Shown here: positions 27,482-34,616 of the stretch, piece after piece
How the letters are laid out: every line of letters starts with the position of its first letter
Position numbering within the stretch: the stretch's first letter is position 1
Source of the DNA: Treponema saccharophilum DSM 2985
GTDB lineage: Bacteria > Spirochaetota > Spirochaetia > Treponematales > Treponemataceae
Assembly: GCF_000255555.1 (NCBI RefSeq)
Contig: NZ_AGRW01000045.1
Span: 59,326-123,325, forward strand
Length of the DNA: 64,000 nt
Direction of reading: 5' to 3'
Translations under genes and position numbers: made by a program
The notes under the pieces: generated by a model
The model's database searches: none
Seen by the model: only the letters and a program-made list of their open reading frames with translations
What the model was told of the DNA's origin: nothing

Positions 27482-28294
27482 CTATTTGTAGCGTGCCGCC
27501 TCGCTTTCGAAATCAAAATCGATGTCGTCCAGAATTTCGTCAAGAGACTTTTCGAGCGCATTGTGTTTTTTGTCGAAATGCAGGTTGTTCGTCGTGACGA
27601 AACCCGAAGAGTCGATTATCAGATACGCTTTTTTTATGTTCTCCTGTTTTTCGGTAACAGGATTGTAGCCATCATATTTCTGCACATATTTGTCGAATTC
27701 AGACTCCGACAAGGCGTTTTCCTCGGCGAACGGTGTCGTGGGAAGCATCTGCAAAATCTTGAACCGTTTCGGCCGGACGTCATCAAGAAGCCGCTTTATG
27801 TCCTCGTTGAAATTCAATTTCGACGCGACGACATTTATTTTGAGCGTTATGCCGCACTCCTTTATGCACCTGCAAATAGCAACGAGCCTTCCGTAATCGA
27901 AAACCCTTCCGCCCACGCCTTCGCACCGGCCGAGAATTCTGTTCGTTCCGTCGTTCAGAGAATCGATGCTGAGCCCAATCATCGTAAGTTTTCCGGCATT
28001 TTCGCGGACGAATTCCTCTGTCAGAAGAATTCCGTTCGTTATAAGCGAAGCCTTTATTCCTTTCGAGACGACAGCGTCGATTATTTTTTGCAAGTCTTTG
28101 CTTGTAGTCGGCTCTCCGCCCGCAATGTTCACGCGCCCATCCGTTATCCCGTGTTTTTCGAAATAACCGGCAATGTTTTCGATGATTTTCTGAATATCGT
28201 CGAACGAAAGACAGTTCTTGTCTTTTTTGGCGTAGCAGCAGCGGCAGTTGAAATTGCAGAAATCCGTAAAATGCAAATTGAAAATCTTGTTCAT
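27482..28294 (-). CDS. Viperin-like radical SAM enzyme (prokaryotic viperin candidate)
   Basis: A 270-residue radical SAM protein. The CxxxCxxC cluster motif is C13, C17, C20 and the SAM-binding 'GGEP' is at 59-62. Beyond the generic fold it carries segments that I recall as typical of viperin: 'NRILGR' (118-123), 'LKINVV' (151-156), 'NFNEDI' (161-166), 'RFKILQML' (177-184, with the R-x-K pair that contacts the triphosphate in viperin) and 'KKAYLIID' (221-228). Viperins convert CTP (bacterial forms also GTP or UTP) into 3'-deoxy-3',4'-didehydro chain terminators. I chose ATG 28294, six bases after AAGGAG; the ATG one codon earlier overlaps the desulfurase stop. It is the last gene of a four-gene overlapping operon. 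The activity is inferred. Confidence 0.85.
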   Translation of the reverse strand: MNKIFNLHFTDFCNFNCRCCYAKKDKNCLSFDDIQKIIENIAGYFEKHGITDGRVNIAGGEPTTSKDLQKIIDAVVSKGIKASLITNGILLTEEFVRENAGKLTMIGLSIDSLNDGTNRILGRCEGVGGRVFDYGRLVAICRCIKECGITLKINVVASKLNFNEDIKRLLDDVRPKRFKILQMLPTTPFAEENALSESEFDKYVQKYDGYNPVTEKQENIKKAYLIIDSSGFVTTNNLHFDKKHNALEKSLDEILDDIDFDFESEAARYK

Positions 28295-29421
28295 CATGCG
28301 CTCCTTAGTTTCTTGAAATCGCAAATGACGGCAGAAAAAATCCGCGCGAATTCCTCGCATTCGGCAAGCGTGTTTTCTTTGCACAGAGAAATCCTCATCG
28401 TTTCCCGCGCGCTTTTTTCCGAGCCGGTCATCGAATAAATCACGTGCGAGAACGCGTTTTCGTTGTTCAGGCAGGCAGAGCCGCCGGAAACGCAAACTCC
28501 CTTGAAGTCGAGTTCCGAAATCAGATTTTCGCTGTCAAAATCGGGAATCGTGACGCTCAGAATATGCGGAATCGAACAACCTGCGCCGTTGAAAACCGCG
28601 TCCGGAACAATTTTTTTGATTTCTCGCTTGAGAAAATCTTTCATCTGCTGGATTTCCGCGAGCTTCATGTCGGAAACAATTTTTTTGACTGCCAAAGAGA
28701 ACGCATAAAGACCCGAAACATTTTCCGTTCCGCCTCGTATTGCATTTTCTTGTCCGCCACCAAAAATGATTGGAGACAAGGAAACTGACGGACGCAATAG
28801 AAGGCATCCGATACCTTTCGGCCCGCCGATTTTGTGCGCGGTAATCGTAATCAGGTCGAACTGCTCCCACTCAACGTCAACATGCCCGATTGCCTGAACT
28901 GCATCCGTGTGGACGGCAATTCCGTTTTCATGCGCGATTTTTACGATTTCGCGCCAGTTTTTCTGAATGATGCCCGTCTCGTTGTTCACGAAGCTGAATG
29001 AAAGCAATACGGTGTCATCGCGGATTGCCGAGCGGAATTCATCGATATCGATTTGCCCGTTTGAATCGACATTCAGAAAAGTCGCGTCAAAGCCGTTTTC
29101 CAAAAGATATTCGGCAGGCTCAAGAATCGACTTGTGCTCGGTTTTGACCGTGATAAAATGCCCTTTTTTGTGGGTGGCCAGAAAGCCGAAAAGCGCAAGG
29201 TTGTTGCTCTCGGTCGCACCGCTCGTTGCAATCAGCTTCCAGCTCGGAAGACCGAGTGAAGAAAGTATGTCGTTTCGGCTTTTTTCAAGCAGTTTTTTTG
29301 CTTTCTCGCCGGCAGAATGTTCGCTTGACGGATTTCCCCAACTGTTTTTCATCGAGTTCATCATCGCTTCAAGGATTTCGCCGTCCATTTTTGTTGTCGC
29401 AGCATTGTCAAAATAAATCAT
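28294..29421 (-). CDS. Cysteine desulfurase (NifS/IscS family)
   Basis: A 375-residue PLP enzyme with 'YFDNAATT' at the start, 'TEHKSI' (His 96), 'HTDAVQAIGH', the PLP lysine K197 in 'TAHKIGGPKG' and the catalytic C317 in the mobile loop 'SGGSACLNN'. It releases sulfane sulfur from cysteine. Its start overlaps the stop of the phosphotransferase gene (ATGA), and its stop overlaps the start region of the viperin-like gene, so translation is coupled. It could load the [4Fe-4S] cluster of that enzyme, or supply sulfur for a nucleotide or other product as DndA does; the sequence does not decide between these. Confidence 0.95.
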   Translation of the reverse strand: MIYFDNAATTKMDGEILEAMMNSMKNSWGNPSSEHSAGEKAKKLLEKSRNDILSSLGLPSWKLIATSGATESNNLALFGFLATHKKGHFITVKTEHKSILEPAEYLLENGFDATFLNVDSNGQIDIDEFRSAIRDDTVLLSFSFVNNETGIIQKNWREIVKIAHENGIAVHTDAVQAIGHVDVEWEQFDLITITAHKIGGPKGIGCLLLRPSVSLSPIIFGGGQENAIRGGTENVSGLYAFSLAVKKIVSDMKLAEIQQMKDFLKREIKKIVPDAVFNGAGCSIPHILSVTIPDFDSENLISELDFKGVCVSGGSACLNNENAFSHVIYSMTGSEKSARETMRISLCKENTLAECEEFARIFSAVICDFKKLRSA

Positions 29422-31289
29422 ATTTTCCAAACCTTTTTCTCGCATGTTCCAGACACCGAAGTGTCGATTTCATAAATCTCGCCTTCGCTGAAGCGGTTTT
29501 CGTCGATTCCGACAAGCGCGGGAATTCCCTTTTCGCGCAGAAGAACGGAAAGATGGCAGAGAAGCGAGCCTTCCTTGAACAGAAAGCCCGCGCAGTTTTT
29601 TCCGAGCCGGTTTTTCAGGGCAATATCCGGCACATCGCACAAATAAATTTCCTTTCTGCCGGTCTCGCCGTTATCGACAAAAGAATCCTTGAAATGCGAA
29701 TCGAGCGATGAATCAAGGCTCTGCCGCTCAAGCCTCACGAGAACACCCTTTCCGCTTCCCCGTGAAATGACGCCGTTCAGAATGTCATCTTCCTGGACGT
29801 TCGCGGATTTCTGCTCGTCGGTGACATCGATGAGATACGGGATGATTTTTCCGCCCTTTTTCAGGATGCCAATCTCAAGATTCAAAGACTTTTCTTTCGT
29901 GAGATAACTGGAGAACGCACTGATGACAGAAGAAATCTCGGAATCGGTCAGGCTGATTTTCTCACCGCATTTCTGCTCGATTCTGCAGCCTTCGATAAGG
30001 CGTATGCATTTTTCCTGAACAATCTCGTTTCGGTTCAAGACTGTTTTGTTTTCATCTATTATATAGCGGCTCATCGGAAAAATTCCCTTCGCAACGAAAT
30101 GCCCGCGTGCAATCTCCAAAATAAAATTATCGCCATTGCGCCGCACTATTCCCGTGTAAAGAGGATCAAAAATCTCCTGGATTATCATCGTGCAAATCCA
30201 GGAATTGTCCTTCACTTTTTCATACAGCGCTTTGAGCGTAGCAAAAACGTTGCCGTGCTCCGGGAACGTGCGGATTCCGTAGCGGTTGCAGGCGATTGCG
30301 TTTGAGACATTCTGCTTTTCACCGGCAAACGAGCGGAGAATTTTTGAATCGGTAAGTTTCGGAAGAATGACGACGACATTGTATCCCGTGCAAAATTCGC
30401 TTCGTTCAAGTTCAGTTTTCTCTATCGGAAACTCATCCGTCAGGCAGTTCACGCACACCGCAAAAGCGGGCGAAACCATAACGCCGCGTTTTTCGGCAGC
30501 CAGGCGCATCGCGATTTTGTCGAGCGATTTTATTTTTTTGTTTCCGCCAATCTCCGAAACGGAAACTTTTTTGACGCAGTTCTCGTTGAAAAGGATTCCC
30601 GTTGCAGGGCGGCACTGCAGAAAATACAGTTTTCCGCTGCCTTTTTCCACGGCGAATTCCATATCGAGCGGCTTCCCGAATTTCGTTTCCGATAAAATGC
30701 CGATTTCGCACACTTCTTTCAGCCAGTCTTCATTTATTTCCCCGATTTTCTCTTTTTCGACAATCCGATTTTCGCCCTTGTCGGTTCCAGAAACGAGAGC
30801 CTCTCCGATTCCGTGCCTGAAATTGACTACGCATTCTTTTTTTGAATATGTCAGCGGATTCGACGTGAAAAGCACGCCTGAAATTTCAGCGTCAACCATC
30901 TCCTGAAAAACGACGCCCATTTTCTCGCCAGAACGGCTTCCGCTGTGAACGACTTCCCGAACGGCGCCCAAAACCGAATCTTTGTCAAAATCAACGTTGA
31001 GTTTCGTTTTGTAATTGCCCGCCTTGCTTTCTTCCGCGCCGTCCTCGGTTATTCCCGAAGAGCGAACGGCGATTCTGTTTTTGCTGAAAGCCGCATTTTC
31101 GATAAGCGCGGAAACTGTGGAATTTGCATAACTCTCGAAATCGCTGGAATTTTCACTTGGAAAAACGCGCGCAAAATACGTTTTTGGAACTTTGATTTTG
31201 TTGTCGAAAAGCCATTTCAGTCCAAACGCCTTGCCACCGAACTCTTCCTGCGTTATTTCGGATTCAGAACCAAGAATATTATTTTCCAT
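29418..31289 (-). CDS. PEP-synthase-like phosphotransferase with C-terminal His swivel domain
   Basis: A 623-residue protein. The N-terminal about 240 residues are a PPDK/PEP-synthase ATP-binding domain ('GGKAFGLKWL', 'RIAVRSSGITEDG', 'GVLFTSNP', 'MEFAVEKGSGKLYFLQCRPAT'). The middle region has no pyruvate/PEP-binding barrel. The C-terminus is a short phosphohistidine domain, 'LLCHLSVLLREKGIPALVG', with the expected His at 579. This layout recalls rifampicin phosphotransferase more than true PEP synthase, so I infer ATP-driven phosphoryl transfer to an unknown small molecule. Start 31289 (MENNI) follows GGGAG and overlaps the upstream gene by 11 bases. Confidence 0.85.
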   Translation of the reverse strand: MENNILGSESEITQEEFGGKAFGLKWLFDNKIKVPKTYFARVFPSENSSDFESYANSTVSALIENAAFSKNRIAVRSSGITEDGAEESKAGNYKTKLNVDFDKDSVLGAVREVVHSGSRSGEKMGVVFQEMVDAEISGVLFTSNPLTYSKKECVVNFRHGIGEALVSGTDKGENRIVEKEKIGEINEDWLKEVCEIGILSETKFGKPLDMEFAVEKGSGKLYFLQCRPATGILFNENCVKKVSVSEIGGNKKIKSLDKIAMRLAAEKRGVMVSPAFAVCVNCLTDEFPIEKTELERSEFCTGYNVVVILPKLTDSKILRSFAGEKQNVSNAIACNRYGIRTFPEHGNVFATLKALYEKVKDNSWICTMIIQEIFDPLYTGIVRRNGDNFILEIARGHFVAKGIFPMSRYIIDENKTVLNRNEIVQEKCIRLIEGCRIEQKCGEKISLTDSEISSVISAFSSYLTKEKSLNLEIGILKKGGKIIPYLIDVTDEQKSANVQEDDILNGVISRGSGKGVLVRLERQSLDSSLDSHFKDSFVDNGETGRKEIYLCDVPDIALKNRLGKNCAGFLFKEGSLLCHLSVLLREKGIPALVGIDENRFSEGEIYEIDTSVSGTCEKKVWKI

Positions 31290-31845
31290 CAGCAATTCTC
31301 CCACACAAATCGTGCTCTTTTATGTAATCCGCCACCGAAGAAGGGACGAGGTTCTCCCAATTTCCGCCTTCCGCAATCGTTTTCCTCAAAAGGCTTCCGC
31401 TTATCGGCTTTTGTTCCGGCGTGCGCTCCCACATCACTTCGACATTCACCCCCAAATCCGAAAGCGTCTTGAATTTGTCGCGCCCCCAGTCATCGTAAAT
31501 CGTCATGAAGAACACGGCGTCTTTCGGCACGAAGTTGAAAAGCAAATCCGGGGTTTCAATCGGAAACGGCACGATAGTAAATTCGCTTTCGCATATTCCC
31601 TCGCCCAAAAGTGCCGCCCGAATCATCTCAAGCCGTTCGAAGAATGTGAACGGATTTGCGGTGGAATCGAGCCTGTGCGTGTCGATTCTGCTGATTCGCT
31701 CGTCTTTCGTGTTTCCCGTGTAGTTCGTGATTCCGATTATCAGCCGCTCGCACCGCTTTTTCCCTTCGAGCAGGTATTCAAGATGCCCGTTGTGCAATCC
31801 CTGAAAACGCCCGTGAATGACGCCTATTTTATGTTTTTCTCTCAC
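31279..31845 (-). CDS. NMNAT-like nucleotidylyltransferase
   Basis: A 188-residue protein of the HIGH-motif nucleotidylyltransferase superfamily. 'GVIHGRFQGLHNGHLEYL' contains the HxGH motif (H18-H21), and 'PISGSLLRKTI' is the ISxTxxR-type phosphate motif. Closest in look to archaeal-type nicotinamide-nucleotide adenylyltransferase (NadM). In its setting it may attach a nucleotide to another metabolite rather than make NAD. First of the four overlapping genes ending in the viperin-like gene; AGGAG precedes the ATG. Confidence 0.9.
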   Translation of the reverse strand: MREKHKIGVIHGRFQGLHNGHLEYLLEGKKRCERLIIGITNYTGNTKDERISRIDTHRLDSTANPFTFFERLEMIRAALLGEGICESEFTIVPFPIETPDLLFNFVPKDAVFFMTIYDDWGRDKFKTLSDLGVNVEVMWERTPEQKPISGSLLRKTIAEGGNWENLVPSSVADYIKEHDLCGRIADGK

Positions 31846-33719: not shown

Positions 33720-34616
33720 ATGATTGATTTTAGTTTTCATTTTACAGAATCAACAGAAGAAGAAAAACAGATTTTAGATTCAGAAATAAAAAGCCAAGCC
33801 CCATCAAACACATGCATCCGTTATTTCACCGGCAGACGCTGGAATAACTGTGGAGTTGCGGCGGTTGATGTGAAAGGAAATGTTTGTGCCATTTTGAAAG
33901 TGAAAATGCAGAATGACATTTCTACTGAATTTTCTGATGTATATTTTTTTTATGAATATCTTATTTATTATCTTTTTAATTTTGCAAAAAGAGTTGAATG
34001 GAAAAAAGTAGAGCCCAATCTTCAGGAGGACTTTCTTAAACTAATTGCCTATTTTGACAGGAAAGTTGCAGGAGAAGGGAGAGTGCGAACTGTTTATAAG
34101 GCGGATGTAATAAAAGATTCAGATGACATTATTTATTATGTAGAGCAGCAAAAGAAAGTTTTCATCAAACGTCTTAATAAACCAAGAAAAGAAAAGTCTG
34201 AGCCTCTTATGCTTCCCAGGAGTGAAACAGGTCTTCCTGTAGATATATCTGATGTAGAGGCATGGTCTACGGCAGAATGGGGACAAATGGAATATATTGT
34301 CCTTTCAAAGGGTGACGAAACTTATTGCATATTTCCAGAAAATAAAGACCAACAAACTGACGAAAAGCACGAAATGGAAAGAATTTGGAACTTTTTTGGT
34401 GATGATTTTGAAGATACCTGTTTTACGAAGGAAGAAATCGAAGCTGTACGAGAATGGATGAAGATGCAACTGAAAGATAAAAACAGTACCTTAAGTCGCT
34501 ATTTTGCTCAACGTCGTGCCGAAGATGAGAAACATCACAAAGAGTTATTTTCTCGTATTCAGGAAAATACAGCCAGACAGAAGGAAAATCTTATACAATT
34601 AAAATCAAAACTATAG
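33720..34616 (+). CDS. Unrecognised 298-residue protein in AT-rich strip
   Basis: A 298-residue soluble, acidic protein. The N-terminus ('FSFHFTESTEEEKQILDSE'), a central Trp-rich stretch ('DVEAWSTAEWGQMEYIVLS') and a C-terminal helical, charged tail from about residue 240 are visible; I know no match. GAGGAAG precedes the start. It is co-directional with the 154-residue gene 30 bases upstream and equally AT-rich. No transposase or integrase is next to it. Confidence 0.65.
   Translation: MIDFSFHFTESTEEEKQILDSEIKSQAPSNTCIRYFTGRRWNNCGVAAVDVKGNVCAILKVKMQNDISTEFSDVYFFYEYLIYYLFNFAKRVEWKKVEPNLQEDFLKLIAYFDRKVAGEGRVRTVYKADVIKDSDDIIYYVEQQKKVFIKRLNKPRKEKSEPLMLPRSETGLPVDISDVEAWSTAEWGQMEYIVLSKGDETYCIFPENKDQQTDEKHEMERIWNFFGDDFEDTCFTKEEIEAVREWMKMQLKDKNSTLSRYFAQRRAEDEKHHKELFSRIQENTARQKENLIQLKSKL

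Follow-up and report, generated by a model that had tools for sequence, protein, structure and literature searches.

Viperins are an enzyme family known for antiviral nucleotides and have been studied as makers of free ddhNTPs. Prokaryotic viperins (pVips; NF038283, PADLOC models PDLC02903-02905) are themselves already known, and in the kinase-associated pVips a nucleotide kinase gene is adjacent to the viperin gene. Here we report on a viperin of the rumen bacterium Treponema saccharophilum that shares with the pVips the radical SAM fold, the motif, the nucleotide-site residues and a score above the family cut-off, whereas it is encoded without such a kinase and instead together with a nucleotidyltransferase, a dikinase and a cysteine desulfurase (genes A, B and C; the viperin gene is D). 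We regard this operon, a viperin with a putative conjugating module, as a variant on the known viperins. By titles and abstracts we recognised no description of the A-B-C-D set in the searchable literature, a coverage outside which the primary pVip papers lie, and the available parts of two viperin papers (PMC10732462, PMC12988326) do not mention such partner genes.

Organization of the operon

The window (the whole analysed stretch of 64,000 nt) contains four overlapping minus-strand genes that form one operon (positions 27482-31845). Gene A (31279..31845, minus strand, GTG start) encodes a nucleotidyltransferase of 188 aa with the NMNAT fold (PF01467), gene B (29418..31289, minus strand) a PEP-synthase-like dikinase of 623 aa (PF01326 and PF00391), gene C (28294..29421, minus strand) a cysteine desulfurase of the NifS/DndA/SspA type with 375 aa (PF00266) and gene D (27482..28297, minus strand) a prokaryotic viperin of 271 aa (PF04055; NF038283). 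The overlaps amount to 11 bp for A/B and 4 bp each for B/C and C/D. Coordinates and Pfam matches thus bear out the four overlapping genes of these families that a sequence-only reading had described, with the last overlap, given there as a few bases, being exactly 4 bp; the length of D has to be corrected from 270 to 271 residues when the annotated start is used. For all four genes we used the start codons annotated on the identical plasmid record pTS2 (NZ_AP025290.1, 381,873 bp) of T. saccharophilum JCM 32279, to which A, B and D are 100% identical. The product names given there are adenylyltransferase/cytidyltransferase family protein (A), PEP/pyruvate-binding protein (B), cysteine desulfurase (C) and 'viperin family antiviral radical SAM protein' (D).

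The G+C content of the four genes ranges from 0.457 to 0.499 compared to 0.533 for the window. A hypothetical gene upstream of the operon (33720-34616) has a G+C content of only 0.35, which suggests that foreign DNA adjoins the operon. Regulatory signals between 27380 and 32300 show no excess over shuffled sequences (3 promoter-like signals versus 4.0, 10 terminator-like signals versus 7.7). On pTS2 the genes around D comprise the other three operon genes and one for a serine/threonine transporter, and none of them is a nucleotide kinase; inside the operon we found no transporter or glycosyltransferase gene. A defence-island location, which the sequence-only reading had raised, did not emerge: of 37 features annotated up to 20 kb away on pTS2, only D has the product name of a known defence gene. 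In viral contigs we found no match to A or B and one weak partial match to D, and A was not found in phages either.

Gene D encodes a viperin

The sequence-only reading had assigned D to the viperins, and the profile and tree comparisons support this assignment. D scores 243.5 bits against NF038283 ('viperin family antiviral radical SAM protein', curated cut-off 180), and the PADLOC pVip model matches with 9.3e-67, while the kinase-class pVip models score lower. When a profile of the D clade is compared with the PDB, the match to viperins of solved structure has values of 1e-40 to 2e-44, and that to MoaA 1e-15. In a tree, 62 viperin rows including D are split from four MoaA rows with a support of 100/100. 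MoaA and the peptide- or tRNA-modifying radical SAM enzymes were therefore rejected as identities for D, and the profile search that had been proposed as a check gave viperin as the best family, with no better match to a peptide- or tRNA-modifying one.

The motif NxHx4Cx3Cx2C (N5, H7, C12, C16, C19) is present in all 38 aligned rows; of the 26 clade rows, 19 have Y directly after it and 7 have F. R122, K151, N153, K178 and Y223 occur in 26 of 26 clade rows, and R53 is kept in 24 rows and replaced by K in the other 2; we take these six residues to be nucleotide-site residues with roles as in the viperin-CTP structures. With the remaining viperins of the phylum D shares about 27-36% identity, and it forms its own clade apart from them (support 96/99). 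Judged by family membership and these residues, D likely makes a ddh-nucleotide.

The partner enzymes

Gene A matches PF01467 (1.5e-9) and carries the HxGH motif 'GRFQGLHNGH' as well as 'ISGSLLR'. Its predicted structure (pLDDT 92.5) has archaeal NMN adenylyltransferases as top PDB matches. Despite this agreement in fold, A scores below the cut-offs of the NMN adenylyltransferase families in NCBIfam (PRK01153, 65.9 versus 127 bits; a second family, 60.2 versus 181.2 bits), and we rejected membership in them. One relative of A (P0219, 51%) is named PhpF by its source. PhpF, a CTP:phosphonoformate nucleotidyltransferase, makes CMP-5'-phosphonoformate from CTP according to the available portions of PMC8976061 and PMC6697681. 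It belongs to the same Pfam family as A; the operon of A contains no phosphonate gene.

Gene B matches PF01326 (3.4e-31) and PF00391 (3e-6) and consists of an ATP-grasp domain (PPDK_N), a middle domain that matches no family and a C-terminal phosphohistidine swivel domain. The predicted structure (pLDDT 88.0, pTM 0.85) matches PEP synthase, PPDK and rifampin phosphotransferase in the PDB, all of which share the ATP-grasp and swivel domains with B. PEP synthase and PPDK contain in addition the PEP/pyruvate-binding barrel PF02896, to which B shows no match at E 0.1, while rifampin phosphotransferase has the same three-part plan as B without that barrel. With NCBIfam scores far below the cut-off, no detected barrel and a length of 623 aa, B was rejected as a true PEP synthase; it was also rejected as a rifampin phosphotransferase (RPH family 64.5 bits, cut-off 999). 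A second ATP-grasp copy in the middle domain is not supported either (profile comparison, 15.5% probability over 39 columns). His583 (numbered as in alignment A1, four above the annotated B protein) and the ATP-site residues are invariant in 49 of 49 aligned rows among the matches listed. A whole B was found in 1 of 392 genomes of the phylum. Within the family, 2 of 274 genomes (the host and G568) contain a whole or contig-cut B, and 13 other matches cover one domain only.

Gene C matches PF00266 (6.1e-65) and PADLOC SspA (1.5e-106), and scores 326.4 bits against FeS_nifS, under the cut-off of 530.75. It keeps the 'GSAC' loop and the lysine of 'AHK' (motifs aligned with three relatives). We rejected C as a part of a Dnd/Ssp DNA phosphorothioation system: the DndA score is 293.7 bits versus a cut-off of 480, and none of the 37 features annotated up to 20 kb away on pTS2 bears the name of a dnd or ssp partner gene. 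Elsewhere in the host there is a match to the aminotransferase-V family that is stronger than that of C (462.5 versus 219.9 bits).

Recurrence of the four-gene set

All four genes are found in the same order on a Sutterella contig of 21,013 bp (L079), which belongs to another phylum. This ordered recurrence, together with a protein in which A and B are fused (P0006), demonstrates that the arrangement is more than chance. Both outcomes that the sequence-only reading had named as counting against it, a better match of D to a different radical SAM family and four genes that never co-occur elsewhere, are thus absent; the co-occurrence extends, by linkage, to metagenomic clusters. In the Sutterella family 1 of 67 genomes contains A, and this is the known one. 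A class-V aminotransferase gene (PF00266; L079:13675-14850) that by eye resembles phosphonate aminotransferases is located downstream of this Sutterella operon, about 3 kb away.

For the metagenomic clusters, linkage was inferred from identical longest-contig sizes, comparing 26 D-clade, 9 sister-clade and 6 other viperin clusters as well as 50 non-viperin radical SAM matches with at least 49 B matches and 120 of 717 A matches. At least 10 of the 26 D-clade protein clusters, Sutterella's included, share the exact longest-contig size with a relative of A or B, and one of the ten (Sutterella, 21,013 bp) was confirmed by reading the contig. The shared sizes also include 11,359 bp for P0087, P0004 and P0182, 15,317 bp for P0095 and P0016, and 14,164 bp for P0102 and P0194. 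Among the matches listed, 6 of these clusters pair with B and 5 with A, with P0087 pairing with both, compared to 2 of 50 in the non-viperin control (Fisher p 0.0002, likewise among the matches listed). One sister-clade viperin also pairs among the matches listed, on a contig of 912 bp that is too short for both genes whole. In a quick tree of B, from which the first 150 residues of the fusion were excluded, the 8 B rows for which a viperin partner is indicated (2 read directly, 6 known only by a shared longest-contig size) all fall in one 20-row group (SH-aLRT 97) that contains 0 of 9 B rows from other contexts, both counts being among the matches listed.

In 20 regions around other viperins of the phylum we found no match to A, B or C at E 0.01. 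Apart from the host, 18 genomes have a viperin over the cut-off, and for 17 of them the part read extended over as much as about 9 kb per side, whereas the G171 viperin (4.3-kb contig) was read as a 3.8-kb locus only. The set of 20 includes a second copy in G029 and the sub-cut-off viperins of G273 and G318, and several of the contigs are short. The second copy in G029 (G029:C67:21285-21959) contains an in-frame TAA.

A and B as a broader core

We observed A directly upstream of B in 12 loci that were read: the window, L079-L086 and three plasmids. The order is A-B-C-D in the window and in Sutterella (L079), A-B-DHH-C in Lachnospiraceae (L081), and A-B-DHH in L084, on an R. pyridinivorans plasmid and in L082, where the contig ends soon after. 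A-B is followed by a MoaA-like radical SAM gene in Williamsia (L086) and by a radical SAM gene on an R. opacus plasmid, and it stands by itself in Enterococcus (L083), in L085 and on an E. gilvus plasmid; in a Treponema MAG (L080) the contig ends after A-B. Among the 12 loci the partner is accordingly a viperin in 2, a DHH protein in 4, another radical SAM protein in 2 and none in 3, with L080 cut by its contig end. For the DHH proteins that were compared with families, the best match is Mn-pyrophosphatase, below the cut-off (135.9 and 115.9 versus 283 bits). At E 1e-15 the viperin profile finds nothing in 11 of 12 A-B and related genomes, the sole match being that of Sutterella. Of 16 plasmid records with A, 8 were read. 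In named genomes the B profile picked out 43 loci, 8 of them with A beside B; the rest, apart from L096, match B in one or two domains only. L096 counts against the coupling of A and B, as it encodes a relative with 24% identity that spans residues 79-613 of B and has no A nearby.

Judged by their layout, in which they are adjacent, overlapping and once fused, A and B are a tight unit. They are an older core that lay outside the sequence-only reading and mostly occurs without viperin, which shifts the likely role of both. The proposal of that reading that the two enzymes modify the nucleotide and that the desulfurase provides Fe-S clusters or sulfur is plausible. The desulfurase, too, follows A-B in the viperin-free L081 and is hence not there for viperin alone. 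C was seen in just 3 of the 12 loci (the window, L079 and L081), with contig ends cutting two others, so that a role of sulfur throughout the A-B family is not to be taken for granted.

A decayed member of the family is seen in L091 (L091:10046-17613), where a C-terminal remnant of B lies by a serine recombinase, together with DHH and desulfurase genes and adjoining an NACHT NTPase (PF05729, PF22720). By eye, this locus also contains a Vsr/5mC-methyltransferase gene, and the surroundings of this A-B family member look like those of a defence island. In three Firmicutes loci a DUF5919-like protein is encoded upstream of A-B-DHH (L082:5298-6701, L081:4388-5311, L084:8468-9373; the L081 match is sub-threshold), and in L082 this protein and its neighbour carry matching motifs ('GDKN/GEKN') which look by eye like those of amyloid signalling.

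Relatives of A without B

Seven loci with a relative of A and without B were read (L137-L140, L152-L154). In Rhodococcus (L139) A lies directly downstream of SelD (378.5 bits, cut-off 125), and SelD-related proteins are encoded directly upstream of A in Halorussus (L137, 172.9 bits), and Halobaculum (L138, 126 bits; L140, 94 bits), none of them reaching the cut-off of 250. In L138, L139 and L140 A has an apgM/PhpG-like neighbour (apgM 237-249 bits, cut-off 320; PhpG 164-187 bits, cut-off 545), while in L137 a DHHA2 protein follows A. The arrangement of acyl-CoA dehydrogenase-like, SelD or SelD-like, A and PhpG/iPGM-like genes recurs on Rhodococcus and Halobaculum plasmids (L139:4675-8871, L138:3011-7543, L140:2951-7594) and is perhaps another thio- or selenophosphate pathway.

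SelD (selenide, water dikinase) has the same overall stoichiometry as pyruvate, water dikinase. SelD and SelD-like putative thiophosphate synthases stand in the place of B beside these relatives of A, although the AIRS fold of SelD is unrelated to that of B. A chalcogen dikinase of another kind at this position supports a model in which B acts as the dikinase for A. The SelD-like proteins have been proposed to yield thiophosphate, as stated in the available part of Li et al. 2014 (PMC4210487).

In the class to which the L081 genome belongs, a match to A at E 1e-30 occurs in 4 of 391 genomes; one of these was already known, and the three new ones have A without B. In L152-L154 A is located in polysaccharide clusters, with LicD in 2 of 3; in L152:7068-10171 and L154:6173-9423 it is accompanied by LicD and a histidine phosphatase-like gene. 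Such clusters are compatible with any phospho-X and count against a sulfur-specific model. The likely role of A is to couple a nucleotide to an unusual phosphorus acid or phospho-ligand coming from a dikinase, either SelD and its relatives or B depending on the lineage.

Proposed pathway and alternatives

The reading that we tentatively favour, with somewhat less than even confidence, is that viperin makes a ddh-nucleotide and that A, B and C join it to a small phosphorylated group, probably sulfur-bearing. C would release sulfur from cysteine. B would act like a water dikinase (ATP + X + H2O -> X-P + AMP + Pi) via the phosphohistidine at His583, with X most likely being sulfide, which would give thiophosphate. 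A would then let X-P displace pyrophosphate from a nucleoside triphosphate, for which D would supply ddhNTP, by preference ddhCTP. The predicted end product is a ddh-nucleotide conjugate with a thiophosphate or other phospho-X end, which might interfere with phage polymerases, withstand phosphatases or serve as a signal. Sulfur is our first guess for the acceptor because C follows A-B both with viperin (2 loci) and without it (L081, and L091 with its decayed B); selenium is unlikely because the host has no match to SelD. Counted against this reading is the presence of viperin in only 2 of 12 A-B loci. In a more specific version, which we consider rather unlikely, A and B would form an undescribed pathway to nucleotidyl-thiophosphates, that is nucleoside diphosphates with a terminal P-S group, and the viperin variant would give a thiophosphate-capped chain terminator or alarm molecule.

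Other readings of the same genes deserve consideration. Viperin requires a 4Fe-4S cluster, and the PADLOC models distinguish pVips with and without kinases, a precedent for accessory nucleotide enzymes; D could therefore be an ordinary stand-alone viperin with helpers, in which C loads the Fe-S cluster, A and B adjust the nucleotide pool and no conjugate is formed. We rate this as somewhat unlikely, given that C follows A-B without viperin as well (again L081 and the decayed L091), that the A-B unit is viperin-free in 9 or 10 of 12 loci (L080 is ambiguous) and that none of the three genes occurs in the 20 regions around other viperins of the phylum. The lack of annotated defence genes near the operon, the separate D clade (96/99), the two LicD-bearing polysaccharide clusters and the PhpG/iPGM-like neighbours of A in Rhodococcus and Halobaculum (all sub-cut-off) would rather fit an operon for a secondary metabolite or cell-surface precursor, in which D tailors a nucleotide conjugate instead of making ddhNTP for defence. 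This is in our estimate unlikely, since the presumed viperin nucleotide-site residues are kept in 26 of 26 D-clade rows and the operon has no transporter or glycosyltransferase gene.

In the Campylobacter phosphoramidate pathway a PEP-synthase-like glutamine kinase acts before a cytidylyltransferase. By description, this order of a dikinase-type kinase and a nucleotidyltransferase is that of B and A, and B has in common with rifampin phosphotransferase the barrel-free three-part plan; B might thus phosphorylate an amide or amine and A add the cytidylyl group, giving a sulfur-free (ddh)cytidine diphosphoramidate-type conjugate. However, the Campylobacter pathway is not known to include a viperin or a desulfurase, and a chalcogen is suggested both by C and by the SelD genes next to relatives of A, which makes an amide or amine acceptor decidedly unlikely.

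Implications

The association of one viperin clade with enzymes of three other kinds (dikinase, nucleotidyltransferase, desulfurase) means that in some bacteria the ddh-nucleotide may be a mere intermediate. A and B look like an exchangeable module whose partner can be viperin, a pyrophosphatase-like protein or a second radical SAM enzyme, and the A-B-C-D set offers a concrete, testable route toward thiophosphate-type nucleotides. If the thiophosphate version of the pathway were true, a thiophosphate-capped ddh-nucleotide would be hard for phosphatases to disarm and would represent a new chemical class in antiviral immunity.
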